Below are positions 1 through 22,662 of a stretch of 64,000 bases of DNA, one piece after another. The stretch spans positions 17,356 through 81,355 of the forward strand of contig JAOAPY010000043.1 in the NCBI GenBank assembly GCA_025463135.1. Direction: 5' to 3'. The first letter of the stretch is position 1, and every line of letters starts with the position of its first letter. The notes under the pieces were generated by a model. It was given only the letters and a program-made list of their open reading frames with translations, had not been told where the DNA came from and made no database searches. This stretch comes from Acidobacteriota bacterium (GTDB lineage: Bacteria; Acidobacteriota; Blastocatellia; Pyrinomonadales; Pyrinomonadaceae). A program made the position numbers and the translations under genes.

Positions 1-2312
1 TCATCCACGTCAACTAAGCCGTCGTTTGGCGTCCACCGGCGTAGCCAGCGACGACTGCGAGCACGCAAAGCTCGAGCAAGGTGAGTGTTCGCTGTCAGCA
101 AATAATGTGCTGCGCCCGTAGCCTCCTCCTTATTCGACTCAACCAAATTCGCAAGCAAAGCCAAGTCATACTCTGCCTCATCAATAGCAGCATTGGGGCG
201 TTCTGGCGCAGGCCAACCAAGGCGCGCTCGCGTCTTTGACTCTGCCCGAGAGGCTATCTCCTCGAAACCAGGCAAGACCCCTTCGGCAGCGCGTAAAGCT
301 TCCAGAGCATAGAAGGATGGAACTCGAGGTCTTGATTGCTGAACGTCAATACGCGGATATGAAAGATAAACCCGGTCTCGGGCGGCGCCGATAGCCAGCC
401 TCAAAGCGAGACGCTCGACTTCCACTCGGTCACGTCGCGTTGGAAGTTCAGTGTCCTTCCGCTGCACGTCTGGCAAGATTGGATCTTCGACAATCTTTCG
501 CGGAAAAATTCTTTCCGCCAAGCCGGGGATAAAAACTACCTGAAAGGAAAGCCCGCGGGCCGCGTCAACCGGTCCTATGAAGACACGACCATAACGCCGT
601 TTTGGTGGCTCCACTCCCAAGTCGTGAAGGCGGGGCTCGAGAATGAGTTGCACTTCGTAGAGATCGACTGGCCCAACCGAGCCCATTGGCTCCAGTTCCG
701 CGAGCGTAGCCATGACACCTCCAGGTTGGCGCAGAGCATTCACAGCCAACTCCCGTAGGTGCGCGAGCCACTCATTCCAATTCGCTTTGACTGGGAGGTC
801 AGCTAACCGTCCAATAAGCGGCAAAGCATATTCTCGCAAAGCGTCGAGGTCGCGAATATCCCTTCTAATAGAATCAACGCGAGCCTCCTCTTCAGACGCA
901 ACGTCTTCAATCCGGAGACGAAACTCATTCGCGAGTCCTTCGAGTCGTCGTGCCCAGCGATCCTTGCCTCCGATCACGGCTGAATCGACGAGCAATCGCT
1001 CCCAACGCGCTGGGGCTCGCAAGGCTCCATCAACAACCGCACTCTTCTCGGGCTCAGCGACAAGATCCGAATCCTCGATCTCGTTTGCTGTCTCGCTGTT
1101 TTCAGCCTCTGTTGTACTTGCTGCCAGCTCATCGATCGGGGCGACCCACTGGGATTCCACATCTTTCTTCGCTGCAGGCGCCGGCATTTGGCCCAGCGAC
1201 AGGTACTCAGCAAACCGTTTCGCCGAGAGTCCATCAGCGGCGCATGCCAGAAGCGCGAGCATGGCACGACCAGCCGGGTCGGGAGCGGTTGTGCCGCGCA
1301 CGAAGTAAGCGGGAATTTCGGCCCGACTGAATGCCTCTTCGAGATGAGATCTGTACTCGCCGGGCGAATTGAGCAGGACCGCCATTTGATCAAATGGCAC
1401 GCCTCGCTCTGCCTCGGCCTGAATGCCTCTAACAATCTCAACACATTCGCGCGGTTCCCCAGGCCAGTTCTGAATCGTCACACTCGACTCGAGCGGAGTA
1501 ATCGGCGGGGAAGAATTCTCGAAGAGATGTTGTTTGGTGAGGGAGAGAGAATTTGTGCCACTCGTCGCACTTGCGTTGCCACGCTTGCAGCGAAATGACT
1601 CTTCCAATGATGAGACTGTACGCTCATCACCCTGCGGCACCGTTGCCAGCACACGCGGCGAACCAGCCGCCAGTTCCTGGACTAATCTGCTCTCCAAGCG
1701 GCCGCGTATAGCAACGTCGAGCAACAAAAGAGGCAGCCCGGCGTAGGGAGCGTTCTCTGGCGAGCTAATTGAATCAATAGCTGCCTTGTACAATGCGGCC
1801 CGGTCGGAGAGTTTCGACTCCAGTAGCTCCTGCTCGACGAGGTTTGCAATCGCAGCGAGATCTTTGCCCCCGCGATCTAGTCGCGCGATCGAGTCGGCGG
1901 CGACCTCATTCATGCGCAACTCTTCCAACGTCTTTGCGACTGCAATGGGAAAGCCCGGCCGTGTTGCCACTCGCTCGAAGTAACTCAGTTCGCCTTCTGA
2001 TTGGAGCGAATGAATAGCGCGCGCCACAACTGCCGTGAATGTGAGATTACTAGCCGGTGCAGTGCCGGACGCAGCAAGAGCATGTTGTGCCAGCCGCGAT
2101 GCAAGAACATTTAGAGTTAGACGTTTGATTCCAAACCAAGCTGCGGACGAGTTCACTACGCCGAGTTGAAAATCCGAAGCGGCTTCCGTTGAATTTGCAA
2201 CAATGAGTATTTCAGTATCGGCGGGATAAGCTAGGACCCAGTTTCGAGCAGTTTGAAGGCGCGCGGCCGCATCACTGGAGACTTCGATTCGCTTTCTCGC
2301 GCTTTTAGTCAT
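1..2312 (-). CDS. AddB-like helicase/nuclease subunit, partial (C-terminus beyond window)
   Basis: Reading the minus strand from the ATG at 2312 gives an open frame of about 770 codons that runs off the left edge. The translation contains a stretch like AVLLNSPGEYRSHLEEAF followed by AYFVRGTTAPDPAGRAMLAL, and later DAARGLSFQVVFIPGLAERIFPR. These resemble the inactivated UvrD-like domains of AddB/RexB-type proteins, which normally end in a PD-(D/E)XK nuclease domain. That end is not in the window. The start lies 37 nt after the stop of the SNF2 helicase gene, so it is probably the distal part of the same operon. No good Shine-Dalgarno is seen at the ATG. Family proteins pair with a helicase to process DNA ends. 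Whether this copy is a housekeeping repair gene or a defence component cannot be told without the sequence to the left. Confidence 0.75.
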   Translation of the reverse strand, partial: MTKSARKRIEVSSDAAARLQTARNWVLAYPADTEILIVANSTEAASDFQLGVVNSSAAWFGIKRLTLNVLASRLAQHALAASGTAPASNLTFTAVVARAIHSLQSEGELSYFERVATRPGFPIAVAKTLEELRMNEVAADSIARLDRGGKDLAAIANLVEQELLESKLSDRAALYKAAIDSISSPENAPYAGLPLLLLDVAIRGRLESRLVQELAAGSPRVLATVPQGDERTVSSLEESFRCKRGNASATSGTNSLSLTKQHLFENSSPPITPLESSVTIQNWPGEPRECVEIVRGIQAEAERGVPFDQMAVLLNSPGEYRSHLEEAFSRAEIPAYFVRGTTAPDPAGRAMLALLACAADGLSAKRFAEYLSLGQMPAPAAKKDVESQWVAPIDELAASTTEAENSETANEIEDSDLVAEPEKSAVVDGALRAPARWERLLVDSAVIGGKDRWARRLEGLANEFRLRIEDVASEEEARVDSIRRDIRDLDALREYALPLIGRLADLPVKANWNEWLAHLRELAVNALRQPGGVMATLAELEPMGSVGPVDLYEVQLILEPRLHDLGVEPPKRRYGRVFIGPVDAARGLSFQVVFIPGLAERIFPRKIVEDPILPDVQRKDTELPTRRDRVEVERLALRLAIGAARDRVYLSYPRIDVQQSRPRVPSFYALEALRAAEGVLPGFEEIASRAESKTRARLGWPAPERPNAAIDEAEYDLALLANLVESNKEEATGAAHYLLTANTHLARALRARSRRWLRRWTPNDGLVDVD

Positions 2313-2349
2313 GAGAACTCGGATTGCTCGACTACAGGGTAAAGGACGT

Positions 2350-5220
2350 TCACGCGCCGTCAATGCTAAGGTTAAAACTTAGCTCTTCTGAAATAGCAGT
2401 AGGCAACTGTACGGCGCAACTCGACTCCGGCGTTATCAACCGAGCAACCGCATCCTGTCCCATTACTACGCGAAACCACCTCTCACGATCTGACATCACT
2501 CGATACTGCCGTTCGTCGGCTGTGCCTGCCAGGTATGGGAGATACACAACTATAGACTCCTTGCCTTCGGCTTTGCAGCCCAGCCGGTCAATACGTCCGG
2601 TACGCTGTTCGATGTTGCTCGGGTTCCAGGCTAGATCGTGGTGAATAACGTGCCGGCAAAATCGCTGCAAGTCGACGCCCTCTCCCATCACTTCACTGCA
2701 AACAAAAATATCAGGGAAGAATGGAGTATTAAACGCTCGCATCAAGCGGGCCCGTGTTTCGCGCTTAGTCGTGCCGGTGGCTACCTGCACGTTGGCGAGC
2801 GTGAGTTTGTCACGATGAACATCGGTATTGCCATCCTCATCATCGGAAACTCCGATGGTTCCTGTTTCAGTTTTCAATGCCGCTTCCAAATAAGGCTCGC
2901 GCTCTGACTCAGAACATTGCTGAGTTAAGAAATCAATGAAGTTATCAAAGCGCTCGCGCCAGGACCCTGCAGATCCCTCGACGTGATCCAAGGTTCTCGC
3001 CACCGCCTCGGCTGGCTTGATTCGATCAACGTCCGCTAGTGGAAAACACCTAATTAGCGTGGTAGAAACGCGCATAAAGCGACGCATCACGGTTATGAGA
3101 GACTCGCGTTGCTCGTCAGACATCTCAACTTTATCAAGTGAAGCAAAATGCCGTTGCACAATCTTGCGGAGTGCACGATCAAGTGCTTTCCTACCGGGCG
3201 AATCAACATCGTCAAAGAAACGTTTTCGTATTCTCTCGAGGAGCCGCTCGACGTCGCCGTCGTTAATATCCTGGCCCGCAATCCGCAGTGCGTTTCGTGC
3301 GCGCACAGCTATGCGTCGCTCAATTTCATCGCTGATATGAATGCGTAGCGCGCGGCAGGTATGCCGATAAAACGCGAAAACAAGTACCTTCTCACCCCCC
3401 TCCCACAGATCGACAACCCTTCGCACCGTTGCAGAGATTTTTGGATGGCCCGCACCACTTGTGCGTTCCAGCGCACTGTCAAATTCAGTTAGGTACCAGC
3501 GAGAGTGTGACAGGTCTGCCAGCCTGGAGGCGGCCTCCTCTTGTTCATCCAATCCAGCTTCCTTACTTTTCCGAGTAAATCGAAATGCCTCGTAGGAGGA
3601 ACAGAGCGCTTCACCCAGCACATCCTTGCTGGGACGGGCTGCACTTCGCGCCGCGAGAAAGAAAGGCAGCAATTGCCCGGATGGGATTGTCAGGCCTCCT
3701 GTTTTCTCAAGTACGTCGATTGCGGCGCCATCTAATCGTTCGCGACGACTAATCTCCGTATGTGGCCAACATGGAGTCTTGTTGTGTCGCACTATCCAGG
3801 GTCCCAAAGCTTTCTCTGCCCACTGTCGACTACTCTTTGCCGCTTCGTAAGCATCTACTACCGCGCTTTGATGATTAGTGAGAGATTCTCGCGGAGAACC
3901 AAGGAGAGACTTCCACCACAAGTCAACGTCATTGTCGACATCACAATCTTCCGGCCGCAAGCAACTCCAACGTCGCTGCAATGCAATCGCGCTACGTTGG
4001 CTCGCGGTTAAACGCTCTCCCAAATTGTCTAGGGACTGTTGAAAAGCTTCGCGACTACCCAACTCAAGAGGTTCCCAACGTATTCCTCCGAACCTTTCCA
4101 GAACGCTCACCAGTTCATGATGTCCAAGTTGAAATGGCGTCGCAGTAAGGAAGAGCATTCGGTCAAAGGCATTTGCCATTGCTCCATCGCCGGTGTGCAG
4201 GTCGCGTTTTGAGTCTGGCGACTGGAGTTGGCGGGCGAGGGCCGTACCAGGATTCTTCAGATGGTGCGCTTCATCAAGGACCAAAAGCGGCGACCGCCAG
4301 CGCGTCTGGGCAAGAACTGCATTCCAAAGCGTTTTCTCGACTTTCAGCAACGTTCTGCGCGCATCACTGATTCGCTCCGATAACCGCTCGCTTGTTCGCA
4401 ATGGCATCTCTGCCAGCGCCTCCGCGATTGGCCTCAGATCAATCCTGCTGATCGCTCTACTCACCGATTTCGGAACAGGATCGTCTTGTAACTGGCGCCG
4501 TTCGTCTCGAAGCGTCGCGTTGTAAATGTCTTTCCAAGCTTCAGGACCTGTTTGCAAGAGTTTCCGCCATAGCTCATCTCCCCAACCGTGAGCACGCTCT
4601 TCACCAATCGCCCACAGTAATTCACCCAGGAATCGAGGAATGTGTTTCTTAACTTGAATGAGTTTGTTCGCGTTGCCGCGAGCATGGCGCCGCAGAGCTT
4701 CCGCAATTAGCGACAGCCGAACCCACTTGTCTGACTGACTCCGACTCATCGCGCCTTGGGCGAGAAAGATAAAGTGACAGCGCTCACGCGGTGAATCATC
4801 TAGCAATTTCATTAGATCCACGCTATGACGGGCCACTCCATATCGAACCGCTGTCGGACGTCTTAACTCCTTTAGTGTTGCTTCGCCTCTCTGTACAGGT
4901 TCGCGATCCTCAAGGTACAGACCGCAAAAAGCATTAAGGTCCTGGACCCACTTATCGATAAGGTTAGCCGGTACCATGACAACTACTGGACCAGTCTTTT
5001 TTCGAACAGCGACGCCATAGGCACACCCCAATGCAACAAACGTCTTTCCCATGCCCACTTCATCGGCCAGGATTACCCCCGGCTGACGACGAAGCCGTCG
5101 CATAATCTCTTCCACCTCTCTCCGTTGCCGCCTTTGATCAGCTTCAGGCACCCGCTCGTTTATTCGAGTGCCCAAGACCAATTCGGATGGAATATCGAAT
5201 AATCTTTCTATCCGTGACAT
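2350..5220 (-). CDS. SNF2-type DEAH helicase (DrmD/RapA-like)
   Basis: The protein has 956 aa. The Walker A motif ADEVGMGKT is at residues 52-60, DEAH is at 316-319 within VLDEAHHLKN, a motif III-like LTATPF follows, and motif VI QRTGRIDRLG is at about 872-881. This is the SNF2/RapA arrangement of two RecA domains separated by a long insert, here rich in helices. SNF2 proteins translocate on double-stranded DNA rather than unwinding it. DISARM class 1 DrmD is a protein of this type and similar length. The start overlaps the end of the PLD gene by 13 nt, which implies translational coupling. Inference: it is a DNA translocase of the defence array. Assignment as DrmD rather than another SNF2 branch would need a tree. 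Confidence 0.85.
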   Translation of the reverse strand: MSRIERLFDIPSELVLGTRINERVPEADQRRQRREVEEIMRRLRRQPGVILADEVGMGKTFVALGCAYGVAVRKKTGPVVVMVPANLIDKWVQDLNAFCGLYLEDREPVQRGEATLKELRRPTAVRYGVARHSVDLMKLLDDSPRERCHFIFLAQGAMSRSQSDKWVRLSLIAEALRRHARGNANKLIQVKKHIPRFLGELLWAIGEERAHGWGDELWRKLLQTGPEAWKDIYNATLRDERRQLQDDPVPKSVSRAISRIDLRPIAEALAEMPLRTSERLSERISDARRTLLKVEKTLWNAVLAQTRWRSPLLVLDEAHHLKNPGTALARQLQSPDSKRDLHTGDGAMANAFDRMLFLTATPFQLGHHELVSVLERFGGIRWEPLELGSREAFQQSLDNLGERLTASQRSAIALQRRWSCLRPEDCDVDNDVDLWWKSLLGSPRESLTNHQSAVVDAYEAAKSSRQWAEKALGPWIVRHNKTPCWPHTEISRRERLDGAAIDVLEKTGGLTIPSGQLLPFFLAARSAARPSKDVLGEALCSSYEAFRFTRKSKEAGLDEQEEAASRLADLSHSRWYLTEFDSALERTSGAGHPKISATVRRVVDLWEGGEKVLVFAFYRHTCRALRIHISDEIERRIAVRARNALRIAGQDINDGDVERLLERIRKRFFDDVDSPGRKALDRALRKIVQRHFASLDKVEMSDEQRESLITVMRRFMRVSTTLIRCFPLADVDRIKPAEAVARTLDHVEGSAGSWRERFDNFIDFLTQQCSESEREPYLEAALKTETGTIGVSDDEDGNTDVHRDKLTLANVQVATGTTKRETRARLMRAFNTPFFPDIFVCSEVMGEGVDLQRFCRHVIHHDLAWNPSNIEQRTGRIDRLGCKAEGKESIVVYLPYLAGTADERQYRVMSDRERWFRVVMGQDAVARLITPESSCAVQLPTAISEELSFNLSIDGA

Positions 5221-7313
5221 TCTTCCAACACTCTTTCCCAGAAACGAATCAGATCTTCCGCAATTCGGTGACGTTGCGGCTCGATCAGGGAGCGAAGCTT
5301 ACTCGCTAGCGAGCCGAGAAAAGGACGGTATTCTTTCTTAAACTCAGATTCAGATAAGGAGCCTTCGGCCGGCTGATACTTCACTTCACGCAGCACGATA
5401 AGGAAATCAACGAGAGTCAATACTCCCTCATCGATTGGTCCATCGGCAGTTACGACCTCACGCACCAGGCGGTCCGCCAACGGCTCAACACCCAACAAAC
5501 CTCGCAGCCTCCATTCCAACGCCAGACGACCGTAGACAGGCCGTTCCAAATTGGCGCGAAGCTGTGCGAGGATCCGCGCCCGTCGACGGACCCGATGCAG
5601 AAACGTAGCCTGCAGGTCATATCGCCGAAGTGGATCCAAGTCTATCGGGGTCGCCGAGTCGAGATCGGCATCAAAACCTTCAGGTGGTTGTTGCTCTTTA
5701 GCCCAGGCACGGAACGCCGCGCTAGGATCGGCTGCCGCGATAATCAATAGCATGTCATCGGCGGTCATGTTCTCCAGTTCCGCGGGTGGCGGCAGTGCCT
5801 GACTATCTTCGACATTGAGTGACAAGAAGGCCTCTCCTTCAGCCCACCTCACCAACAGTCTCGGCGGTGGTTGAACTTCCTTCCATGCAAGTTCGACTAC
5901 GGCTGCGCTGCTTCTTTCTCGCCAGCCTCCGGCCACTAGCAATTCTCGCTCTCCCGATCCGGTCACGTAAATTTGCCATTCTTCAGGCAGACGATCAGAG
6001 TCGAGATGTAGAATGATTACGCGTTCGTCACCCGCTCGATATGTCGCCGAAAGAAATCCTGCAGGTAACAACGGGGCCTTCGCCGTTTCTTCCTCGTCGA
6101 GTTCTGGTCTAGGACCCAGCCACTCCGCGGATTCTGGATCGAGAACCTGCTCCATCTCGGGCCAAACCGAGTCCAGTTGCACTGCCTCACCTTTATTCGT
6201 CACGCGATTTACAACGGTGAGAAGATTTGCCTCGGCATTACGGTACCGATCCACGCCCATGCCGGCACAAGTGAAATTGGACGAGCCAATCATCAGGGCG
6301 GAGTAATGCTCTGAGTGAAACGCTACCAGTTTGGCGTGCCATGGGCGCGAGTTCTTATCTCCGTCAAGCGCCGGCAGCATCTCGACTGTCACATCGCCTT
6401 GATAGGACAACGGTATAAGGAGGAGAGATTTTGGCGCGGCGAGACGCGGCAAGGCAGATGGGTCACTATCGCGGATTGCGGGAACGCAGAATGCGAGTTT
6501 CCGTCGCACGCCGCGCGCCATAAATTTGCACAATGCCGCCGTTACTCGACTTGATTCATCATAGACATCGAAGAATGGTGAAGCGATCCAGGCAGTACTC
6601 GGTGAGGACCCGCGACTCCGGCAAACCTGAATCGCTTGTTCGAGACTACTCTGCGCTGGCTGTGCTGGTTCCACAGATGGAAGTGTAAAAACGAGTTGTC
6701 GCCGGATGGGCTGACGCTGCCTGTTTGGTTTCCACTCACCAATCAGTCTTTCTATCTGATCTAGAAACGATTGAGCTCGTTGAACTTCAGGCAGCCGATC
6801 GCTGGCGCCAGGAACAAGTCCGAGTAGGCTTCTCAGGAATCCTGTTGCCTGCGTGAATATCTCGACATTTCCATCGGCCGGCGTAAGATCAACGCTGCCG
6901 GCAATCTCCTGATTAAACCTATAACCAAATTCCGTGAGATTAGCCGATGCAACCATGATGCGCACGTGGTGATTCCAAGCAAGCAGGCTAAGCTTAGAGT
7001 GCTGTTTGCCCGATCTGAGCCGCACCCGCAACACATCCCAGCGTAGTGAGTGTTCAACTCCACCCTGCGTGTGATCCACCAATACGCCGGCGTAGACACC
7101 ACCTAGCCGGGACTCACGCTCGAGAAGGAACGCGAGATCCTCGCGGTCCGGCTCGGATTCAATGTCAAGAAAACGGCCAAGGCACTGTTCATCAAAGAGG
7201 CCGGGATCAAAAGTATAAGTGGAAGCAAGGCAACCGATCGGATCGCCTGCATCTTGCGGCGGCCGCCACAGATCAAGCATGGCTCCGCTGACGGATGTCT
7301 TGCGCTTGCTCAT
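5208..7313 (-). CDS. Phospholipase D-like protein with two HKD-type motifs
   Basis: The protein has 701 aa. An N-terminal motif HSKLSLL at 105-111, followed by VASANLTEFG at 121-130, matches a PLD half-site. A second copy, HAKLVAF at 326-332 followed by IGSSNFT at 342-348 and a glutamate a few residues later, is the stronger one. Two half-sites in one chain form one active site in this superfamily, which includes nucleases such as Nuc and BfiI. DISARM DrmC is also PLD-like but is usually much shorter, so the long C-terminal helical region (about 450-701) is extra. The ATG overlaps the stop of the upstream 451-aa gene (ATGA), and its own end overlaps the SNF2 start. The likely role is DNA cleavage coupled to the neighbouring translocase, which is inference. 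Confidence 0.8.
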   Translation of the reverse strand: MSKRKTSVSGAMLDLWRPPQDAGDPIGCLASTYTFDPGLFDEQCLGRFLDIESEPDREDLAFLLERESRLGGVYAGVLVDHTQGGVEHSLRWDVLRVRLRSGKQHSKLSLLAWNHHVRIMVASANLTEFGYRFNQEIAGSVDLTPADGNVEIFTQATGFLRSLLGLVPGASDRLPEVQRAQSFLDQIERLIGEWKPNRQRQPIRRQLVFTLPSVEPAQPAQSSLEQAIQVCRSRGSSPSTAWIASPFFDVYDESSRVTAALCKFMARGVRRKLAFCVPAIRDSDPSALPRLAAPKSLLLIPLSYQGDVTVEMLPALDGDKNSRPWHAKLVAFHSEHYSALMIGSSNFTCAGMGVDRYRNAEANLLTVVNRVTNKGEAVQLDSVWPEMEQVLDPESAEWLGPRPELDEEETAKAPLLPAGFLSATYRAGDERVIILHLDSDRLPEEWQIYVTGSGERELLVAGGWRERSSAAVVELAWKEVQPPPRLLVRWAEGEAFLSLNVEDSQALPPPAELENMTADDMLLIIAAADPSAAFRAWAKEQQPPEGFDADLDSATPIDLDPLRRYDLQATFLHRVRRRARILAQLRANLERPVYGRLALEWRLRGLLGVEPLADRLVREVVTADGPIDEGVLTLVDFLIVLREVKYQPAEGSLSESEFKKEYRPFLGSLASKLRSLIEPQRHRIAEDLIRFWERVLEECHG

Positions 7314-8665
7314 GTGAGGTCGCTATGGAAGCGTTGGATGGGCACGCTCCTGTAATCATGAAGATACTTGTTCGGTTGAATATCGCGTCTTTTCTCACGA
7401 TAGGCATGTCGCATGTAGATACGATCCGGGCCAAGTCGATCGAACCAGGACCTCTTACCATTGGCAGATTTGCCGCGCTGAATCTCTTCGTGATGCGCGC
7501 ACAGAGCCAAGGCGCAAGCGCCGGCATCGATCGGCTCTGCAAAAACCCCAAATCGATCATCGAAGAGATTCTGAGCCGACACGCTGGTTATCTTTATTTC
7601 ACCAAGGGCATGATGTGCCGTCGCGAATCGCTTGTGTAAATCTTTCACGCTTTGTAGAAAATCGGGATCATTGGCGATAGCAGTGACTTCGAACCCACGC
7701 GCATCAAGGCTGGTTGCCGCAGCTCTCATGAGATCAAATGCATCTTGTAAGGAACGAGCGAATGCTTCATAACTTCGAATCGCGTGTAAGAGTGAAGCAC
7801 ACGCCGGCTCGCGCTCTTCCAGTAAGTCGTGCAACGACTCTTCCGGTAACTCTCTATTCTCTGACTGTGAAAGGAGTTCCCAGATGGTTGGTAAAACTCC
7901 CAGTCGTCGATCGCTATCGGCAGTTAGCAGATTGCGCAGGGATCGTTTCTCTTGAAACTTGGCACGGGCGGGTGCGAATGCCTCCGCCAACTCCGTCCAT
8001 GCTTCATTTGTCCAATTTGGTTTCGTGCGAGGCGGCTTCTCATTGAGACTGCGTCTTACTGCTGCAGTCCATCTCGAGAGAATTGGTTTAGTCTCACTCA
8101 GCCCACGTAGTCCTAAACCACGCGCCCAGGCGTCGACTAACCCCGCGGCATTCGGACCCGCACCGAGGTGCACATCTACAATTCCGAGGCGTATGGCCAG
8201 CCGTTTGTAAACGCCATGAAAGCCAAAAATTCGAGGTGTCTTTAAATAACTTCGGGAGTCAAGATACCCATGTTGATTAAGCGCACGCCGCGCGACCAAT
8301 GTCCCCGGTATTCCCCAAATCCCCGGATCTTCTCCTTTGGTTCGAATCAACGCTTCTACAACTAGCCACTCCCACAGAAGGTAAGGCGAAGCATCACGAA
8401 GTTCTGGTTTGTCCTCAAGGTCTTCGGTTACGAGCGAACCTACAGCCATCGCGGTAAGAAAACGAATTCGTTGCATCCGTTCCCGCACACCCGGCACTAG
8501 TTGCACGGCTAACTGGTCGGCAATCTGATAAAGTCCCAGCGGATCAAGCGTACCCTCGCTCGCGCCTGGAGGATCGTAGCTGGAAAGAAATGGGAAGGCG
8601 GAGAACATGTGCTTTTGATCCATCGACGTTGTTACCAGTCCTTCAGGGTACTCATGGATCACCAT
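7310..8665 (-). CDS. Unknown protein of the defence array
   Basis: The protein has 451 aa and I do not recognise its family. It is soluble, mostly helical, with no signal peptide or membrane segment. The N-terminal third (about residues 25-180) looks well conserved in style, with SSYDPPGASEGTLDPLG and a GFHGVYKRLAIRLG stretch. Near the C-terminus a short CALCAHHEEIQRGK segment could bind metal. The gene sits 28 nt after the toxin-helicase gene and overlaps the PLD gene by 4 nt, so it is firmly in the operon. A later methionine at residue 15 is an alternative start, and no clear ribosome site decides between them. A role as an adaptor or recognition subunit is only a guess. Confidence 0.7.
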   Translation of the reverse strand: MVIHEYPEGLVTTSMDQKHMFSAFPFLSSYDPPGASEGTLDPLGLYQIADQLAVQLVPGVRERMQRIRFLTAMAVGSLVTEDLEDKPELRDASPYLLWEWLVVEALIRTKGEDPGIWGIPGTLVARRALNQHGYLDSRSYLKTPRIFGFHGVYKRLAIRLGIVDVHLGAGPNAAGLVDAWARGLGLRGLSETKPILSRWTAAVRRSLNEKPPRTKPNWTNEAWTELAEAFAPARAKFQEKRSLRNLLTADSDRRLGVLPTIWELLSQSENRELPEESLHDLLEEREPACASLLHAIRSYEAFARSLQDAFDLMRAAATSLDARGFEVTAIANDPDFLQSVKDLHKRFATAHHALGEIKITSVSAQNLFDDRFGVFAEPIDAGACALALCAHHEEIQRGKSANGKRSWFDRLGPDRIYMRHAYREKRRDIQPNKYLHDYRSVPIQRFHSDLT

Positions 8666-8693
8666 AAGGCGGCGCCCAGGCAGAGGCCGCTGC

Positions 8694-10802: not shown

Positions 10803-10803
10803 T

Positions 10804-15957: not shown

Positions 15958-15960
15958 AAT

Positions 15961-16524
15961 TCAATCCTGATGCTTGAGGCCATAAACGATGAAGGCTGAT
16001 AGTTCGCTGTCGGAGTACAGCCAGTCGGCTGTTGGTGCCACCCGCACAACGATCCTCGTTCTAGGTTGTTCCGTTGAAAACTCCGGCAGCACCCCACGAC
16101 ATGATTGGATGGCACCAGAGAGAATCTGCTCCCACCCGGTGGTCCGTGGGTGGCCGGCTAGTATCGAATCCGGAATGAGAACTGATCTCACTGGTGTTGA
16201 GGATTGTGCACAGCCCGGTTCGCTGCACCGGAATTCAACAACATCACGAAAGCTGACTCCAATGGGGATACAGTCGCACCGAATACAGCGCAGCTCCCAC
16301 TTGATTGTGTTCAGTTGGCGCTGAGTCAACTTATTCTGACGGAACAGCGCAATAACCTCTGAGTCACTGTGACGGCGGTGTCCAGCGGGTATTCCATACA
16401 TACCTAGTAGCTTCCCAACGGCACTCTCGCCTCGTACCTGCCCTAGGAAGGCCTCATCATTCTGCAAGGCGACCGACCTCTTACGCAGATAGACGTTGGA
16501 TCTTAGCTTCAGATTTGATCTCAA
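15961..16524 (-). CDS. Small cysteine-rich protein of the defence array
   Basis: The protein has 187 aa and no family that I recognise. Cysteines at 80, 83, 85, 100 and 105 (LRCIRCDC and RCSEPGC) could form one zinc ribbon. The N-terminus is very basic. There is no signal peptide or membrane segment. Its start overlaps the stop of the Hsp70-like gene by 4 nt, and its stop is 3 nt before the giant helicase, so it is translated with both. A nucleic-acid-binding or bridging role between the ATPase and the helicase would fit but is inference only. Confidence 0.7.
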   Translation of the reverse strand: MRSNLKLRSNVYLRKRSVALQNDEAFLGQVRGESAVGKLLGMYGIPAGHRRHSDSEVIALFRQNKLTQRQLNTIKWELRCIRCDCIPIGVSFRDVVEFRCSEPGCAQSSTPVRSVLIPDSILAGHPRTTGWEQILSGAIQSCRGVLPEFSTEQPRTRIVVRVAPTADWLYSDSELSAFIVYGLKHQD

Positions 16525-17984
16525 GGGTTCTCCTGCGAAATGTCAGAACCGGGTACTTCATACATCCATCGAAGCATGTCATATTTGAAGGACCGCTTCC
16601 GTTGAGGTTTTGCTTCGCTATCGGCGTTCGCTTCGAAGACCAGATCCGAGGTAATGTGGCAATCCAATTCTATGAGTTCATCACGGAAGCCAAAACACGG
16701 TGTGTGCAGCTCACCAATGTGGGTTGCTCTCTCATCGCCATTGCGAGCAGCGAAGTTAAAAGTAGCTGTGGTGGCGTCCTCTACCAAACCAAAGTGCAAT
16801 GTTGAACGCGCGCTTTCTTGTTTGGTATTAACAGGGAAGATAGCGTGGAATTGGTCATCTGACAGAACGACGCCGATGCTCTCTGCCATCCGGTAGCAGC
16901 CCGGATGGGCCGCCACCCAGGCGGCACCGCGCGCTATATCCCAGTCAGCTTCTCGAGGAAAGATGATGTTCGGGTGCGGCCAACGCTGCCGCAGCTCTCG
17001 CTGCAGCAGGCTTAGTTGACTAGTGCCGCCCACAACAATCAGTCTGCCGATCTCTTCCTGCGAGACTCGGGCCGCCTCCACACACTGCAGTAGCATCTCG
17101 AGAGCGCCCGAGACGACATCCTCGAGAATACTGTTAAGCGTCGCTTTCGTGAGAGTCTGAGCGACGAGTGTTAAGCCCGCGTAGCGCCCCAGTTCAATCA
17201 CCGCCTGCGTGGCATCTTCTTGCTGCAATTGCCGTTTCGCCTTTTCAGACTCATTTAGCAGGATGTGGCGCTCTTCGGGAGCGACATTGTCGAAACCGAT
17301 AGTCAGGCCATGTGTCTCGGAAATTTGGCTATGAAGCCATCGCGCTAGCAGATCATCGATGTAATCACCTGCCTTGGGCGAGCCCGCAGTATACCGTTCG
17401 ATGATGCAGCCACTCTTCACCTCGAGGACTGATATGTCCAGCGTACCGCCGCCCCAGTCAAAAACCACCGCGTATCGACAGTGGCGCAATTCCCCAGAGT
17501 GGGCAATGAAGGCGGCTGTGGGCTCGGAGATGAATGAAAGGACTTTGACGCCGGCAGAGTCCGCAGCACTTCGCAAGGTGGCACGTTTGTCCGCATTCAT
17601 CCCGATCGGAATGGCGACCACAGCCTCGCGGAGCGGTGGATTGTTGTCCTCTTCGGCGCGTTGCGCCAAAGCCCTGAACAGCTCACTGGCAATATCTCCG
17701 GCGCGCCACGTTCTGGCGGGAGTGGTCCACAACTGGTCTGAGTCGAGAATGGTTTTCACCGACTCAATTACGAGGTGCATACCGCCTTCGCGAAGGGTAA
17801 TGATCTGGTCTTTGACCTTTTGCCCTGCAGAGACTTCTTGGGTGAGGTTGTCGACTGCGATCACGGAGGGAAATGGGATTGGACCCTTTTCGCCAATTCT
17901 AGTAAAGGACTTTCGCTGGTCATCGTAGACCACAACCGCGCTGTTAGTAGTTCCAAAATCGATGCCGAAGTGTTTTGCCATCAC
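16521..17984 (-). CDS. Hsp70/DnaK-like actin-fold ATPase
   Basis: The protein has 487 aa. It shows the Hsp70 ATPase motifs: phosphate-1 GIDFGTTNS at 7-15, EPTAAF at 154-159, phosphate-2 DWGGGTLD at 176-183 and adenosine motif VVGGTSQL at 317-324. After about residue 370 the chain is not DnaK-like: the usual beta-sandwich substrate domain and lid are missing, and about 115 residues of other sequence follow. DnaK itself is near 640 aa, so this is a specialised member and not the housekeeping chaperone. Start choice is GTG 17984 or ATG 17981; both overlap the stop of the coiled-coil gene. No DnaJ or GrpE gene is nearby. It may act as an ATP-driven switch for assembly of the array proteins (inference). 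Confidence 0.88.
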   Translation of the reverse strand: MMAKHFGIDFGTTNSAVVVYDDQRKSFTRIGEKGPIPFPSVIAVDNLTQEVSAGQKVKDQIITLREGGMHLVIESVKTILDSDQLWTTPARTWRAGDIASELFRALAQRAEEDNNPPLREAVVAIPIGMNADKRATLRSAADSAGVKVLSFISEPTAAFIAHSGELRHCRYAVVFDWGGGTLDISVLEVKSGCIIERYTAGSPKAGDYIDDLLARWLHSQISETHGLTIGFDNVAPEERHILLNESEKAKRQLQQEDATQAVIELGRYAGLTLVAQTLTKATLNSILEDVVSGALEMLLQCVEAARVSQEEIGRLIVVGGTSQLSLLQRELRQRWPHPNIIFPREADWDIARGAAWVAAHPGCYRMAESIGVVLSDDQFHAIFPVNTKQESARSTLHFGLVEDATTATFNFAARNGDERATHIGELHTPCFGFRDELIELDCHITSDLVFEANADSEAKPQRKRSFKYDMLRWMYEVPGSDISQENP

Positions 17985-19531
17985 GCGTCCTTCGAGATGT
18001 CCACACCCGCCTGGTTAAGCTGCGCCTCGACCTGGCCCAACCAACTTCGCAGGAACTCTGAAAGGCGTGAACTCGGCTCTTGGTCGTCGGTAGTCCTCTT
18101 GTTCTTAAAAACTGGGCGCAGAGACCGCGCCAGTTGCGCCTTGAAGCCCTCAAGTCTTACCGCAGCTGTACGTTCGATCTCGTCCTCAAGCTCTCGTCTC
18201 TCGCTCGCCCCGGCCAGTTTCTCTTCGTCAAGTGCTTGCTGCACCTCTTCCCTCTCATGGGCCAGAGAACGCGAAAGCGCCTCAGCAGTCTGTTGAGCTT
18301 TCCGGGTCGACGCAAGCTCGGCCTCAAGCCGTGAAATCGCTGCCCGTAGACCGTCCGCCTTGAGTCTAATTTGTTTGAGTTCGGATTCAAGCTGGTCCTT
18401 ACCCGCCTCTGAGTTTTCCAACGCTTGAAGCATTTGCTCTAGTAGTTCAATTTCGCTTGTCACATAACGAACGTCGTTCTGCAATAGCTCAACACTGGAG
18501 TTTCGCAGCTTAACTTCAGTTTGCTTGCGAGTTATTAGTGCGGTCACAGCGGAACGGAATGACTCTTCGAAAGCAGAATCTGGCGTGCCAGCCTCAGGTA
18601 CAGGCGCCTCTGATGTTGAAGCATCTGGTAAAGCGTCTGTCGTTACTTGCTGAGCAGTCGTGCGAGTCTCGTCGAGGTCAGGTGCGACATTATCTAAATT
18701 GGACACGCCTCGTTGGTCCACATCGCTCGGAGAAGGCAAACGGCGAGTCATCTCTGAAGGTACTTCTGCAGTCAGCTTCGCCAGCTCCGTCTTCCATTGC
18801 TGAGGAAAGTCTTTCGCTATCTCCTTCACCTTTTTCGTCACAAGTTCCCGATCAGCAATATCTATGCTGATGCGTTTCACATTTGATAGAGCCCACCTAG
18901 AAAAATCATACGCAGGACGCTGACTCTTCTTCGCCTTTCCCCCATCCGGCTCAGTCATGGCCTCAACAAAACCCGCCATCAAAACTCGCATCAGAGGCTC
19001 TTCCGGCTCGTCGAAATAAACCCACTCTTTATTTCCGAAACGGCCTCGAAGCAGCTCCTTTTTTTCCTTTGACAGTTGTGGCCAGAAGTCCTCCTCCTTG
19101 CCTTTCTTGCCTCTTGAAATCAGACCTTGGAGTATGTATGCGGCGCTTCGGCGGTCGGTTCGCGCGACCTTGTCCGCAACGGCTGCTTGTCTAGTTTGAC
19201 TTTTCTCCGAGGTTAGCTTGAGCAACTCGGAAACGAGTTGATCTTTTCTATCCGCTGGCAAACTCTGCCAGTGTTTCTCAAACAGAGACTCAACAATTGG
19301 GATCGGCAGATCCTGCGCCAGTGAAAGGATGTTGCCTAGCTCCGCTTGGGTAGATGTGGGAGAGAGCAGAGCCGCAGCCATCATCTCCTCCGCAGCTTTC
19401 GCCGATTCGGGTGGCCATGTCCGTTTTCCACGCGAGACCTCAATCAGAGCGTGCAGCTTGGACAGTGTGGTGTCGTCAGTTGCAACTTGCGCAGTAGAGG
19501 TTGGTTCCGCCGCGACGTTCGATTCAATCAT
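17981..19531 (-). CDS. Coiled-coil protein of the defence array
   Basis: The protein has 516 aa. The N-terminal half (to about 270) is helical with no recognised domain. An acidic, low-complexity linker of Pro/Thr/Ala/Asp residues covers about 260-310. A long coiled coil rich in Glu, Leu, Arg and Gln spans about 337-455, and a short helical tail follows. It has no signal peptide. Its start overlaps the 990-aa gene by 8 nt and its end overlaps the Hsp70-like start, so the three are coupled. A partner or nucleotide-exchange role for the Hsp70-like protein is possible but only inferred from gene order. Confidence 0.75.
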   Translation of the reverse strand: MIESNVAAEPTSTAQVATDDTTLSKLHALIEVSRGKRTWPPESAKAAEEMMAAALLSPTSTQAELGNILSLAQDLPIPIVESLFEKHWQSLPADRKDQLVSELLKLTSEKSQTRQAAVADKVARTDRRSAAYILQGLISRGKKGKEEDFWPQLSKEKKELLRGRFGNKEWVYFDEPEEPLMRVLMAGFVEAMTEPDGGKAKKSQRPAYDFSRWALSNVKRISIDIADRELVTKKVKEIAKDFPQQWKTELAKLTAEVPSEMTRRLPSPSDVDQRGVSNLDNVAPDLDETRTTAQQVTTDALPDASTSEAPVPEAGTPDSAFEESFRSAVTALITRKQTEVKLRNSSVELLQNDVRYVTSEIELLEQMLQALENSEAGKDQLESELKQIRLKADGLRAAISRLEAELASTRKAQQTAEALSRSLAHEREEVQQALDEEKLAGASERRELEDEIERTAAVRLEGFKAQLARSLRPVFKNKRTTDDQEPSSRLSEFLRSWLGQVEAQLNQAGVDISKDA

Positions 19532-22496
19532 GGAGCAGTGCCTCCTCTAACTCGATGTCTTTCTCATGTGGTGTAATGTCTGACAAGCCGAGAGAATCTT
19601 TGTCAGAGTCATAATCGCTGTTGTTTCCACTAAGCTTGCTAAGAACGATATGCAGTTTACCCCAGTGACTGCCTAGTTGGCCCACCAGCTTCTGAGACTC
19701 AGAAAAGAATTGCGGATGATGGGTGTGAAAAAAGATCATCAAGCGCAACGCCGAAGCAATTTCCCAAACGAGCCCCTCAACCGCCACATTGCAGGTCAAC
19801 TCAAGATCCCTAATCGAGCTAAAGAAGTACTCATTAGATTTCTCAACACTGTGGTTGCTGCGGCCTTCGAGGGCATAGTGGTAGTCTTCAGCCGCTTTGG
19901 TTAGGATCTGCCCACCTTGCAATCGACCAATTCTGCTTTGTCTAGCGGCTTGCCAGCGCTGCCGCCTGCAGTGACCGGTCCATTCCACGACCATGCGCTT
20001 GTAATCGCCGAAGCTTCTGCGGTTCCGTAAAGCTCTTATGACTTGCGCGCAGTTGTTGCGCCAGCGCCAGTTCGGCGTGCTTCTGGATTTGGCGATGACG
20101 CGACGCAGTTGAGGCCTGCGACTAAGCAGTAGAGCTGCCATGGCTGGGTTGACGTGCCTATCCTCCTCGACAAAATAACGAGCCTCAACATACCAAGTCA
20201 GCGAGCTGCGCAGATCCCCCTCCAGGAGATTAGAGAGTTCCTCCGACCCTTGCTGCCAATCTAAGATCCGGGCACAGATTTCATAGAAAAGCAGGAAGAC
20301 ATGCAATTGCTCTGGAATCACCAGACCCTGGAGCGAGAAAGGCTTCACAGGCTTCGAGTGCATGTCCCTCATGGCATTAAGAACGACCCGTAGATCGTGT
20401 GGAACACACTCAATCCAAGAACCAAATTCCTCGTCAGGGTCATCGAAAAGTCGTTTCTCGATCAACCTGTCATGGAGAAAAACGATGTCTGAGCAAACAA
20501 CTCGATCGTGAGAAACCCGAACTGCTAAGCGCCCTGCGAGACGGGCGCGCGTTTGGAAAGCATCTCTAATCGAATCGGTTGATACTTCAAGCCGGGAGTT
20601 GCGAGGGACGGGTCCCAGGTCGATGCACTTCACAAAACCTTGCCGGTCCGCAACCCCAAGATCAATTCTTCGGCCGCACTCCGCCGAAGACAGCGAAAGA
20701 GAGACAGTCGAGCGGTCCCTCAGACGATCCTGCCAGACTACTTGTCCTTGAACGATATCGCCTTGAACCGTAAATCTGTGAACTGCCCCAGCAACGTGAA
20801 AGCTAACCGAATTCTGGTATGTGATCTGTCCATCGACGAAATCCAACTTTGGAGGGACTCGCCACTGTCCAGGCCCAATTCTTTCGACGGAGATCTGCTG
20901 CCACTCTGCCCGGAATTTGTCGCCTGGTTCAAGCTCGATAATCAGCGACTGGTCAGGACCATTGAGGCCTATGGGCCACACGAGTTTGGCCTTCGGTAGA
21001 AGGACGTAATCTATTGGGCTTTGCCAAAAGCCTTTCGGAGTTCTTCCCTTAGGCTCAATGTAGATTCGGCCTTGGAGCGGTGGCGAGCCTAACGGTAGAT
21101 GAAAAGTGTCTTGTGAACGGTACAAATGCTCGGGTACTCGATGCTGCCTGGTACCGTCCTCCTGAATTAACACATACCTCTCCGCAAAACCGAGGTTCCA
21201 GTGCTCGATCCTGATTTCCGGCAGTTCCCCGACGAACGCATTGGTCGTATGGGGCAACGGAGGGATCGAGGAGACGAAGCTCAATTCCGGAAAACACTCA
21301 GACACCGAGTCGCCTACCGCGAAACCAATCGACGGCAGCTCAAAACCAGGTGGCAGATCACAATCAAAGACCTTCATGACTAAATGATGAAAACCTGGCA
21401 AGTAGAGATCACCTAAAACCTCGATCACAAACTCCTCAGGAATAGACTCTGCTTCCGGCAAGGCAACAAGGTGTCGGCCCGCCCGAACCTTTCGCATGTT
21501 AGAGTCGATCGAAGATATCTCAAGGCTGCCGTCGTTATTGCGAAACACTGCCCACGATCGCTCTTCAGGCCGCCAGGGCACCATCTTCCAAGTCTCAGTT
21601 TTACCGCTAGGATAAACAATCTTGCCGCCCAGCGAGCCTCCAAAGTCATGCTCCTTGAGCATGTATCGCTTAGCTCTGACTTTGGTGCCGTCGAGCCACT
21701 GATATCTGCCTTCTAGTCCTTTCTCGGAGAACTCAAGTGCCAACCTGAGATTGATTCTGTCCAAAACAAATCTAGGCATCGGGAGGTTGTCAGAGCTTGC
21801 GGCAACTGACGGGAGGCGCGCCATCACCATTCGTATTTTCTTCACCGTCAGCCTAAAGCGAGGCATTAACGTCGAAACGTCAGATTCGTCGAATATACCC
21901 TTTTCGAGGTTGCTGATAATCCGTGCCACGTCTCGACAGTACTCCCAGCCGTTAGTTCGCAAGAAGCTTTTGAGCCAAGGTGACTGCACCGTGGTCTTAT
22001 CGCAGCCCTCCCTGTAATCACTTTCTGAAAACCGAATGCCGTAGGTGCGGATGAGTTCGACAAAGAAGGCGGCGAAAGCGTTCCCCAGTCTGGCCGGCAC
22101 TCCTGCCTGTAGCATGATTGGTCTGACGTAGCGGAAAGGTCCGGGGAGATCTTCAACGTAAAAGTGTCGGCTTAGCAGCCTAAGGATCGGTCCTCCAATT
22201 TCTTCCTGCCAGAGATTGACGTCTTGCAAGGGGCGGCCGAATAACTTGTGAAGCACTTGCCAACGAAAGCCTTCTTCGATTTCATCGGGTGAGTAGTAGG
22301 CTAAATTCACGACAACAACTGCTAAGGCCGCACAAATCTCGTCATCCCAGCCCGCACGCCCAGTGTACTTACCCACCGAGGGAGCCAGTTCACTGATCTC
22401 GTGTTCTGAAACCTCTAGGTCGCCGACGAACCCTACATCACGGAACCGGCTAATCCACTCCTGTCCGCGGGTCTTTATTGTAGCCAGGTCGTACAA
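19524..22496 (-). CDS. Large unknown protein at the head of the defence array
   Basis: The protein has 990 aa. The N-terminal part (about 1-230) is helical and the middle (about 260-700) is beta-rich with many Trp, Tyr and Pro residues. The C-terminal 270 residues are helical and basic around 850-890. No ATPase, nuclease or transmembrane signature is visible. The start is TTG 22496 with GGAG six bases upstream, which decides the start. Position and size recall the large E. coli YjiT/STY4851-type proteins, which also sit in restriction islands, but I could not verify this and hold it loosely. As the first large gene of the operon it may be the recognition or scaffold subunit. Confidence 0.75.
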   Translation of the reverse strand: MYDLATIKTRGQEWISRFRDVGFVGDLEVSEHEISELAPSVGKYTGRAGWDDEICAALAVVVVNLAYYSPDEIEEGFRWQVLHKLFGRPLQDVNLWQEEIGGPILRLLSRHFYVEDLPGPFRYVRPIMLQAGVPARLGNAFAAFFVELIRTYGIRFSESDYREGCDKTTVQSPWLKSFLRTNGWEYCRDVARIISNLEKGIFDESDVSTLMPRFRLTVKKIRMVMARLPSVAASSDNLPMPRFVLDRINLRLALEFSEKGLEGRYQWLDGTKVRAKRYMLKEHDFGGSLGGKIVYPSGKTETWKMVPWRPEERSWAVFRNNDGSLEISSIDSNMRKVRAGRHLVALPEAESIPEEFVIEVLGDLYLPGFHHLVMKVFDCDLPPGFELPSIGFAVGDSVSECFPELSFVSSIPPLPHTTNAFVGELPEIRIEHWNLGFAERYVLIQEDGTRQHRVPEHLYRSQDTFHLPLGSPPLQGRIYIEPKGRTPKGFWQSPIDYVLLPKAKLVWPIGLNGPDQSLIIELEPGDKFRAEWQQISVERIGPGQWRVPPKLDFVDGQITYQNSVSFHVAGAVHRFTVQGDIVQGQVVWQDRLRDRSTVSLSLSSAECGRRIDLGVADRQGFVKCIDLGPVPRNSRLEVSTDSIRDAFQTRARLAGRLAVRVSHDRVVCSDIVFLHDRLIEKRLFDDPDEEFGSWIECVPHDLRVVLNAMRDMHSKPVKPFSLQGLVIPEQLHVFLLFYEICARILDWQQGSEELSNLLEGDLRSSLTWYVEARYFVEEDRHVNPAMAALLLSRRPQLRRVIAKSRSTPNWRWRNNCAQVIRALRNRRSFGDYKRMVVEWTGHCRRQRWQAARQSRIGRLQGGQILTKAAEDYHYALEGRSNHSVEKSNEYFFSSIRDLELTCNVAVEGLVWEIASALRLMIFFHTHHPQFFSESQKLVGQLGSHWGKLHIVLSKLSGNNSDYDSDKDSLGLSDITPHEKDIELEEALLHD

Positions 22497-22662
22497 CTAC
22501 GTCTCCAGTAAGAGTAAACAGCACGCAATTCAACAACACGATGAGACGATCCTTTGGCTCGTTAGTCAAAAGACCCGTGGAATTTTTCCGCACCAAGCGG
22601 AGCGCCTGTGCTAGCCAATCGGAGAAGACATGATAGCGGTAAGGCGCACGCCCAAATCCCAA
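22450..22662 (-). CDS. Possible 70-aa leader protein at the operon head
   Basis: This small frame begins with TTG at 22662. GGAGAG lies six bases upstream (22669-22674) and a sigma-70-like promoter lies just before it. It overlaps the start of the 990-aa gene by 46 nt in another frame. The middle, DWLAQALRLVRKNSTGLL and LIVLLNCVLFTLTGD, looks protein-like with a hydrophobic helix; the tail is less convincing. It may be a real small protein coupled to the big gene or just leader sequence. Confidence 0.35.
   Translation of the reverse strand: MGFGRAPYRYHVFSDWLAQALRLVRKNSTGLLTNEPKDRLIVLLNCVLFTLTGDVVVRPGYNKDPRTGVD

Follow-up and report, generated by a model that had tools for sequence, protein, structure and literature searches.

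An eleven-gene array around a YprA-family helicase in an Acidobacteriota genome: a candidate composite anti-phage locus

Among the literature matches listed, the described systems closest to the locus studied here are Druantia III, ARMADA and CoCoNuT. Druantia III is reported to consist of the sensor DruH and the helicase-nuclease DruE, acting on DNA that contains single strands; its description includes sensitivity to the loss of RecD by the host and a synergy with Zorya II for which host RecBCD is needed (PMC13192584). ARMADA II is reported to protect Escherichia coli and to need all four of its Arm genes (PMC12458937), and Hsp70-like proteins are described in CoCoNuT defence operons (PMC11090510). 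The locus itself is a row of eleven minus-strand genes, g10 to g0, around a YprA-family helicase (g6) in an Acidobacteriota bacterium, and it was analysed in a stretch of 64,000 nucleotides (the window, C45:17356-81355; positions without a prefix are window coordinates). We lean towards reading these genes as one composite anti-phage super-operon built round g6 and the predicted sensor g10, with an ArmD-type protein, a PLD-SNF2 cassette and an AddAB-like pair added. The parts are known from Druantia and ARMADA, from a PLD-SNF2 cassette and from AddAB, and the combination is new among the genomes searched. No published description of it was found among the literature matches listed, and the words Hsp70, AddAB and Cas4 are absent from the main text of PMC12458937.

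Composition of the array

The eleven genes stand in one tight row of ~27.0 kb (C45:12814-39851), numbered from g10 (transcribed first) to g0 (last). Ten of them had been described in the initial annotation as co-oriented and mostly overlapping, and all ten were recovered on the minus strand inside the window. The extent of about 22 kb given there holds for the window part, but the row continues past the window's left end, with g0 and the complete g1 outside. Seven of the ten junctions overlap by 4-14 bases and the remaining three are spaced by 1, 3 and 28 bases. The genes, with product lengths in amino acids (aa) and E-values (E) of matches, are as follows.

g10: 19524-22496, minus strand; 990 aa, TTG start; predicted DruH-like sensor
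g9: 17981-19531, minus strand; 516 aa, coiled-coil C-terminal half; just weak SMC/coiled-coil and LmuB matches
g8: 16521-17984, minus strand; Hsp70-type ATPase; HSP70 E 2e-37 over residues 92-358
g7: 15961-16524, minus strand; 187 aa; CxxC at residue 80 and further cysteines; putative small zinc ribbon; no family match
g6: 10804-15957, minus strand; 1717 aa, YprA-family SF2 helicase; DEAD, Helicase_C and MZB (Pfam) in one chain; short C-terminal domain
g5: 8694-10802, minus strand; 702 aa; ArmD-type N-terminus and UvrD/GajB-like helicase; UvrD-helicase E 2e-24
g4: 7310-8665, minus strand; 451 aa (432-aa form in most listed relatives); first gene of the cassette
g3: 5208-7313, minus strand; 701 aa, PLD-family protein; two HxK half-sites at 105 and 326; PLDc_2 E 8e-7, ZacB E 4.5e-10
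g2: 2350-5220, minus strand; 956 aa, SNF2/RapA-type helicase; SNF2-rel_dom and Helicase_C (Pfam)
g1: 3-2363 in the window (cut), complete at L002:16398-19718, minus strand; 1106 aa, AddB-like helicase-nuclease; PDDEXK_1 E 1e-31, AddB N weak
g0: L002:12814-16401, minus strand; 1195 aa, AddA-like; UvrD E 8e-52, PDDEXK_1 E 3e-7

Scans with Pfam, PADLOC and NCBIfam recognised UvrD_C/AddB in g1, SNF2 and Helicase_C in g2, PLDc_2 in g3, a UvrD/GajB-like helicase in g5, DEAD, Helicase_C and MZB in g6, HSP70 in g8 and a coiled coil in g9. These results agree with the domain calls made earlier (DEAD/MZB helicase, SNF2, PLD, Hsp70, coiled coil, AddB and three unnamed products); g4, g7 and g10 had no match in Pfam (E 0.1), PADLOC (0.01) or NCBIfam (0.01). 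The statement that no methyltransferase was visible was borne out as well, with no Pfam methyltransferase match in any of the eleven products, and the sole PADLOC 'orphan methyltransferase' line is the Hsp70-like g8 (E 0.007, 58 residues). A small leader gene, which had been thought possible, corresponds to a TTG frame of 70 aa (22450-22662), which shares bases with the beginning of g10, and no support was seen for it as a gene.

The locus had also been proposed as a DISARM-related system of new composition. The unusual composition around a YprA/MZB helicase was found, but DISARM is not the best name for it. With DISARM class 1 the array shares a YprA-family helicase and PLD and SNF2 genes. 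However, DISARM splits its helicase into DrmA and DrmB, whereas g6 is one unsplit chain with an MZB end, and the best PADLOC models of g6 are DruE types (DruE1 E 3e-211 versus DrmA 6e-18). The array is also without a DrmMI/MII methyltransferase, its DrmC and DrmD matches are weak or partial, and its PLD and SNF2 genes belong to a separate cassette. The expectation that DISARM-related arrays had recently been proposed was right in kind, these being ARMADA as described in PMC12458937, but only g5 is clearly ARMADA-type. CoCoNuT type III, as far as described, resembles the array in having an Hsp70-like protein and coiled coils in one operon; it differs in that no McrB-type GTPase (CnuB) is among the matches listed for the eleven products, and in that g8 retains nucleotide-site motifs while those of CnuD are described as degenerate (PMC11090510).

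The helicase and its ArmD-type neighbour

The helicase g6 was compared with the E. coli Druantia III and ARMADA II proteins of a Zorya-Druantia-ARMADA island (L095), where the Arm names were assigned by gene order and size following the description in PMC12458937, and also with plasmid Druantia III pairs, cyanobacterial and other ARMADA II and Druantia-type loci, and further genomes. In a tree of 29 rows, ARMADA II and Druantia III each formed one clade (support 100), both without g6. After removal of long rows, a tree of 18 rows placed g6 on the Druantia side (split 100), beside the helicases of genomes G075, G331, G256 and G078 (support 82). The approximately unbiased (AU) test rejected g6 as sister of ArmC II (p 0.004), g6 with DruE III (p 0.026, uncorrected for the five groups tested) and g6 grouped only with the G075 and G331 rows (p 0.0004); g6 with all ARMADA rows was not rejected (p 0.243), although the 18-row tree places it on the Druantia side. 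The tree placement and the AU tests together are best explained if g6 is a solitary, deep-branching lineage within the ARMADA/Druantia part of the YprA family. Matches to it at E 1e-60 occur in 17 of 396 genomes of the phylum, its own included, and the closest is 34% identical.

With ArmC, g6 aligns merely in pieces. A short C-terminal domain (g6 residues 1624-1712) is common to g6, ArmC and ZorE and links YprA helicases to the Zorya II nickase; specifically, inside its last ~110 residues g6 matches the C-terminal ends of ArmC (36% over 59 residues, E 9e-9) and ZorE (E 1e-7). No clear PD-(D/E)xK motif was seen in this domain, and g6 may therefore carry no functional nuclease itself. PMC12458937 describes a Druantia III-like branch whose nuclease domain is variable or absent; the G075-type helicases may belong to that branch, and perhaps g6 does too.

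The next gene, g5, begins 1 base after g6, and alignment identifies it as a homologue of ARMADA ArmD. It is 43% identical to E. coli ArmD over residues 2-695, N-terminal region included, and 54% identical in its first 111 residues. This product, annotated earlier as a toxin-fold UvrD helicase, aligns end to end with ArmD, whose N-terminus is termed RelE-like in PMC12458937; a PDB sequence search recognised no RelE at the N-terminal end of g5. ArmD directly follows ArmC in all six ARMADA II loci read, four of which have a named methyltransferase and the other two unnamed genes of similar size. Relatives of g5 at E 1e-70 were found in 20 of 396 genomes of the phylum, its own included, and 12 of the 19 other loci were examined for neighbours. 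ArmC and ArmD are neighbours in three, one of which also has ArmB within the stretch read; two have ArmC1-ArmD-ArmA-ArmB, and seven show other settings. Since ArmD relatives occur in such varied settings, ArmD-type proteins are shared parts; the pairing of g6 with an ArmD-type protein was seen nowhere else among the loci examined.

Two kinds of these loci deserve description in their own right. In L130 (G179), Pfam identifies the neighbours of the ArmD-type gene as genes for a ResIII-type protein of 1023 aa and an N6_N4 methylase of 955 aa; L131, L132 and L136 have genes of similar sizes, the Pfam scan covering L130 only. L128 and L129 (G349 and G211) encode an ArmC1-like helicase, an ArmD-like, an ArmA-like and an ArmB-like protein in that order, that is, an ARMADA I-like helicase with ArmD, a protein tied to type II in the account of PMC12458937.

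These likenesses bear on the idea that the array is ARMADA II with armA and armB lost, which we regard as quite improbable. An ArmD-type gene directly after a YprA helicase reproduces the ArmC-ArmD order, the C-terminal domains of g6 and ArmC are related, and a position of g6 at the base of all ARMADA escapes AU rejection; yet g6 lies outside the ArmC II clade, its sister relation to ArmC II is rejected and it aligns with ArmC only piecewise. Genes of the ArmA (BrxHII/RapA-like helicase) and ArmB (PglX-like methyltransferase) types are absent, g2, the array's only SNF2 gene, matching ArmA over 135 residues at 30%. In addition, the array contains what ARMADA II does not: a candidate DruH-like sensor, the Hsp70-type protein, PLD-SNF2 and AddAB.

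The candidate sensor g10

Of the helicases compared with g6 by BLAST, those of G075, G307 and G331 give the three best matches over the full length, and in each of these genomes the gene directly upstream of the helicase encodes a product of 991-1013 aa, the three being mutually 36-71% identical. Only the G307 protein reached g10 at BLAST E 1e-3 (23%, 2e-4). Two of the three and 13 further relatives make up a family of 15 rows (A5), which was compared with the 16-row family of g10 (A2). The two profiles aligned in hhalign over 628 columns (Prob 98, E 1e-13), and a re-run gave Score 115, with reversed and unrelated control profiles below 25. On profile comparison, these ~1000-aa proteins, whose genes immediately precede those of the three best full-length g6 relatives, are homologues of g10. 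It is a rare protein, with 17 relatives besides itself in 5.8 billion proteins, among 7996 candidates scored.

The AlphaFold2 (AF2) model of g10 has a mean predicted local distance difference test score (pLDDT) of 86, with a predicted template modelling score of only 0.45. It suggests a helical region at 1-226, a beta-rich region at ~240-675 with immunoglobulin (Ig)-like matches at ~400-676, and a helical C-terminus. This predicted architecture agrees with that reported for DruH, three Ig-like domains flanked by helical ends, whose N-terminal surface (about 63-137) is described as essential for defence or modulating it (PMC13192584). At position 123, g10 carries the motif [YF][LV]xx[LI]xxx[GA]G[LIV]P, which the island DruH, a protein of 1119 aa, has at 128 (Y128-L-x-T-L-x-x-x-G-G-L-P), and substitution of the DruH motif residues is reported to abolish or alter defence, provided the numbering matches (PMC13192584). 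A looser form of the motif occurs in 14 of 16 rows of the g10 family and in all 15 A5 rows, and the stricter form was not found in 328,569 background residues.

Homology of g10 to DruH itself is plausible. It is put no more firmly because the direct profile comparison of the two was not significant and the bridge through A5 was unstable between runs: DruH against A5 gave Prob 69 and E 4e-5 in one run; repeated on trimmed columns, the comparison gave Prob 1 and Score 30 (controls 17-25). Several further observations weigh on the same side. The motif is present in only four of nine DruH rows, its pattern was chosen after the sequences had been seen, and the counts within the families were made with a pattern slightly less strict than that of the background count. 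Against the composite reading as a whole stands the finding that, in G256 and G009, the g6-related helicases follow genes of a different size (708 and 731 aa).

Taken as a pair, g10 and g6 resemble Druantia III, as far as it is described, in that a YprA helicase is joined by an Ig-domain protein whose ends are helical, in that some DruH rows have the N-terminal motif at the corresponding position, and in having DruE models on top for g6. They differ in that g6 falls outside the DruE III clade (support 100; AU p 0.026) and terminates in a domain that is different from, and shorter than, the reported PLD ends of DruE III, in that g10 lies outside the YjiT/STY4851 family model (YjiT/DruH, NF038336, no match at E 5), and in that three genes separate the candidate sensor from the helicase. 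Of these three, g8 has PDB matches to DnaK/Hsp70 within residues 2-359, followed by a short tail, and retains motifs that we take to be those of the Hsp70 nucleotide site; g9 and g7 are as listed above.

In G075 and G307, the g10-like gene and the YprA gene were observed as a pair inside CRISPR-Cas operons (G075:C5:93000-132000 and G307:C40:40000-75000), preceded by type I-G-like effector genes and followed immediately by a fused cas4-cas1. The G075 operon additionally has Cas10-Csm3-Csm4-CARF-RelE genes ahead of the pair. CRISPR repeats at a spacing of ~72-73 nucleotides follow downstream, with 49 copies in G075 and 4 in G307. In G331, one upstream gene was scanned and had no PADLOC match.

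Unity of the array and its possible action

The genes g4-g3-g2 constitute a conserved three-gene cassette that recurs in many phyla outside this array. Scanning of genome contigs recovered 30 g4 loci, from Acidobacteria, Verrucomicrobia, Planctomycetes, Lentisphaerae, Nitrospirae, Gemmatimonadaceae, Chloroflexi and others. In 29 of the 30, g4 is followed by a g3 gene; 26 extend far enough for g2 to be looked for, and 23 of them have it after g3 (L003, L006, L007 and L013 end too early for g2; flanks were examined over at most 10 kb, less at contig ends). The exceptions without g2 after g3 are L022, L026 and L029, and broken frames occur in L015, L025 and L032. Neighbours of the cassette include a UvrD gene before g4 (L018), an AddA-like gene (L009) and a partial YprA-like match (L017), and six of nine large neighbours, hand-picked from five loci, match defence models at E 1e-5 (DrmMI twice, Dsr2, a type IV restriction enzyme, BrxC and mad7). 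The g4 family is undescribed and well conserved, with at least 795 proteins at E 1e-3 among the candidates scored; g4 itself is predicted to be mostly helical (AF2 pLDDT 75) and had no PDB match at E 0.001.

Adjacent PLD and SNF2 genes are also a feature shared with PDC-M27 and with Azaca (ZacABC), to which the Zac models presumably refer. Matches of g2 in PADLOC are PDC-M27C (E 4e-40), DrmD (3e-27) and ZacC (2e-26), alongside the ZacB match of g3 (4.5e-10). A PLD-like domain is listed for Azaca in PMC10952713. No ZacA match was obtained for g4 and 25 relatives, the presence of a ZacA model in the PADLOC library being unchecked; for PDC-M27, component C is strong, B weak (0.0013), and A appears in 2 of 26 g4-family members with a best E of 0.009.

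At the end of the array, g1 and g0 form an AddAB-like pair, with DHKTG and DYKTD motifs and, in g1, C815 and CxxCx5C. Both PD-(D/E)xK nuclease motifs and the C-CxxCx5C pattern of g1 look intact. AddAB pairs are repair enzymes in most bacteria, and these features would suit a DNA-repair AddAB beside which an island landed, the defence array then stopping at g2. We consider this unlikely. The same genome has another AddAB-like pair at C5 (frames of 1277 and 1305 aa with a 329-aa frame between), of the commoner type and of a length seen in several relatives, so that g1-g0 is a second AddAB-like set; a full-length g0 relative was found in only one of 24 other genomes searched (G251, 63%), adjoining a g1 relative; and g1 overlaps g2 by 14 bases.

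The array is flanked on the left of g0 by a 274-aa frame without a Pfam match and then an apparently unrelated ABC transporter set. To its right, a DUF3854 gene precedes an integrase (25993-27087), which lies 3.5 kb from the array; beyond these come DUF6414 and AAA ATPase genes, a tRNA-Leu and finally glycolysis genes. The DUF3854 gene (23181-24449), whose product we take to be Toprim/primase-like, lies between array and integrase and resembles mobile-element cargo. The DUF6414 gene overlaps the AAA ATPase gene (27171-29731) beside the integrase, possibly as another defence pair.

A defence role of the array is likely on grounds of homology and neighbourhood. That the genes are a DNA-repair island with no part in defence is an explanation to which we give very little credence: relatives of YprA (MrfA), AddAB and UvrD also work in repair, but the nearest relatives by model or alignment are DruE and ArmD, defence genes neighbour the cassette elsewhere, and an integrase adjoins the array. 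The modules with defence-related relatives (DruE and ArmC for g6, ArmD for g5, the neighbours of the cassette), the homology of g10 to the upstream partners of related YprA helicases, its DruH-like architecture and motif, the presence of a second AddAB-like pair, the nearby integrase and the tight junctions were counted for one anti-phage array.

The weakest point of this reading is the unity of the array. A search for conserved gene order, as had been suggested earlier, had a divided outcome: g4-g3-g2 recurs in 30 loci, but the whole array was found in no other genome searched, and the unity of the modules is unproven because no second copy was seen. Several observations count against a single system. 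None of the 30 cassette loci shows the window's array within the examined flanks, and in G251 a g1-g0-type pair (about 60% identical) lies near a pair of the other type, without g2 or the rest. As the cassette and the AddAB-like pair thus occur without the rest elsewhere, they may be separate systems set end to end. Furthermore, g10 was found in its own genome only among 297 phylum and 162 class genomes (overlapping sets); among 296 other phylum genomes, with at most five candidates scored per genome, g9 had no relative at E 1e-6 and g8 none at E 1e-50; and no sigma-70-like promoter was found upstream. It is accordingly a serious, if somewhat less than even, possibility that two to four independent defence systems lie end to end and share their direction by chance, namely a YprA system of g10-g5, a free-standing g4-g3-g2 cassette and a mobile AddAB pair. 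The g5-g4 spacing, the widest of the array (28 bases, or 85 with the g4 start used by most relatives), would fit such a boundary. On the other side stand the overlaps of g2 with g1 (14 bases) and of g1 with g0 (4 bases), because of which the cassette and AddAB are probably co-translated.

If the eleven genes do form the composite super-operon that we favour, a course of action can be proposed, every functional step of which we infer from sequence and by analogy. First, g10 would sense infection by binding a phage protein, the role proposed for DruH in Druantia III, while the Hsp70-like g8, together with g9 and g7, would keep together or remodel the assembly of g10 and g6, or hand the phage protein over to it. 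Second, g6 would load on 3'-tailed replicating phage DNA and open it; the opened strand would be where g5 starts unwinding, and the RelE-like end of g5 may in addition act on RNA. Third, the g4-g3-g2 cassette would translocate on duplex DNA and cut with its PLD site, and AddAB (g1-g0) would destroy the resulting DNA ends. The array would in this way carry its own end-processing enzyme, where Druantia III is reportedly sensitive to RecD loss and relies on host RecBCD for its synergy with Zorya II.

More broadly, and only tentatively, we suggest a YprA immune class outside ARMADA II and Druantia III, in which an Ig-domain sensor-helicase pair is a portable core that joins different effector sets. 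In the present array these would be the ArmD toxin-helicase, the Hsp70/coiled-coil proteins, PLD-SNF2 and an AddAB of its own, giving independence from a host end-processor; in two genomes of the same family, a related pair stands inside CRISPR-Cas operons before cas4-cas1.

YprA helicases are the hub of several defence systems, and the array bears on how one helicase family joins many effectors. The g4 family is worth study regardless of the array's unity. Were the array one machine, the role of an Hsp70-type ATPase in DNA-targeting immunity would become testable, as would the idea that the reported RecD sensitivity of Druantia III and the RecBCD need of its synergy with Zorya point to a requirement which certain systems satisfy by encoding such an enzyme themselves.

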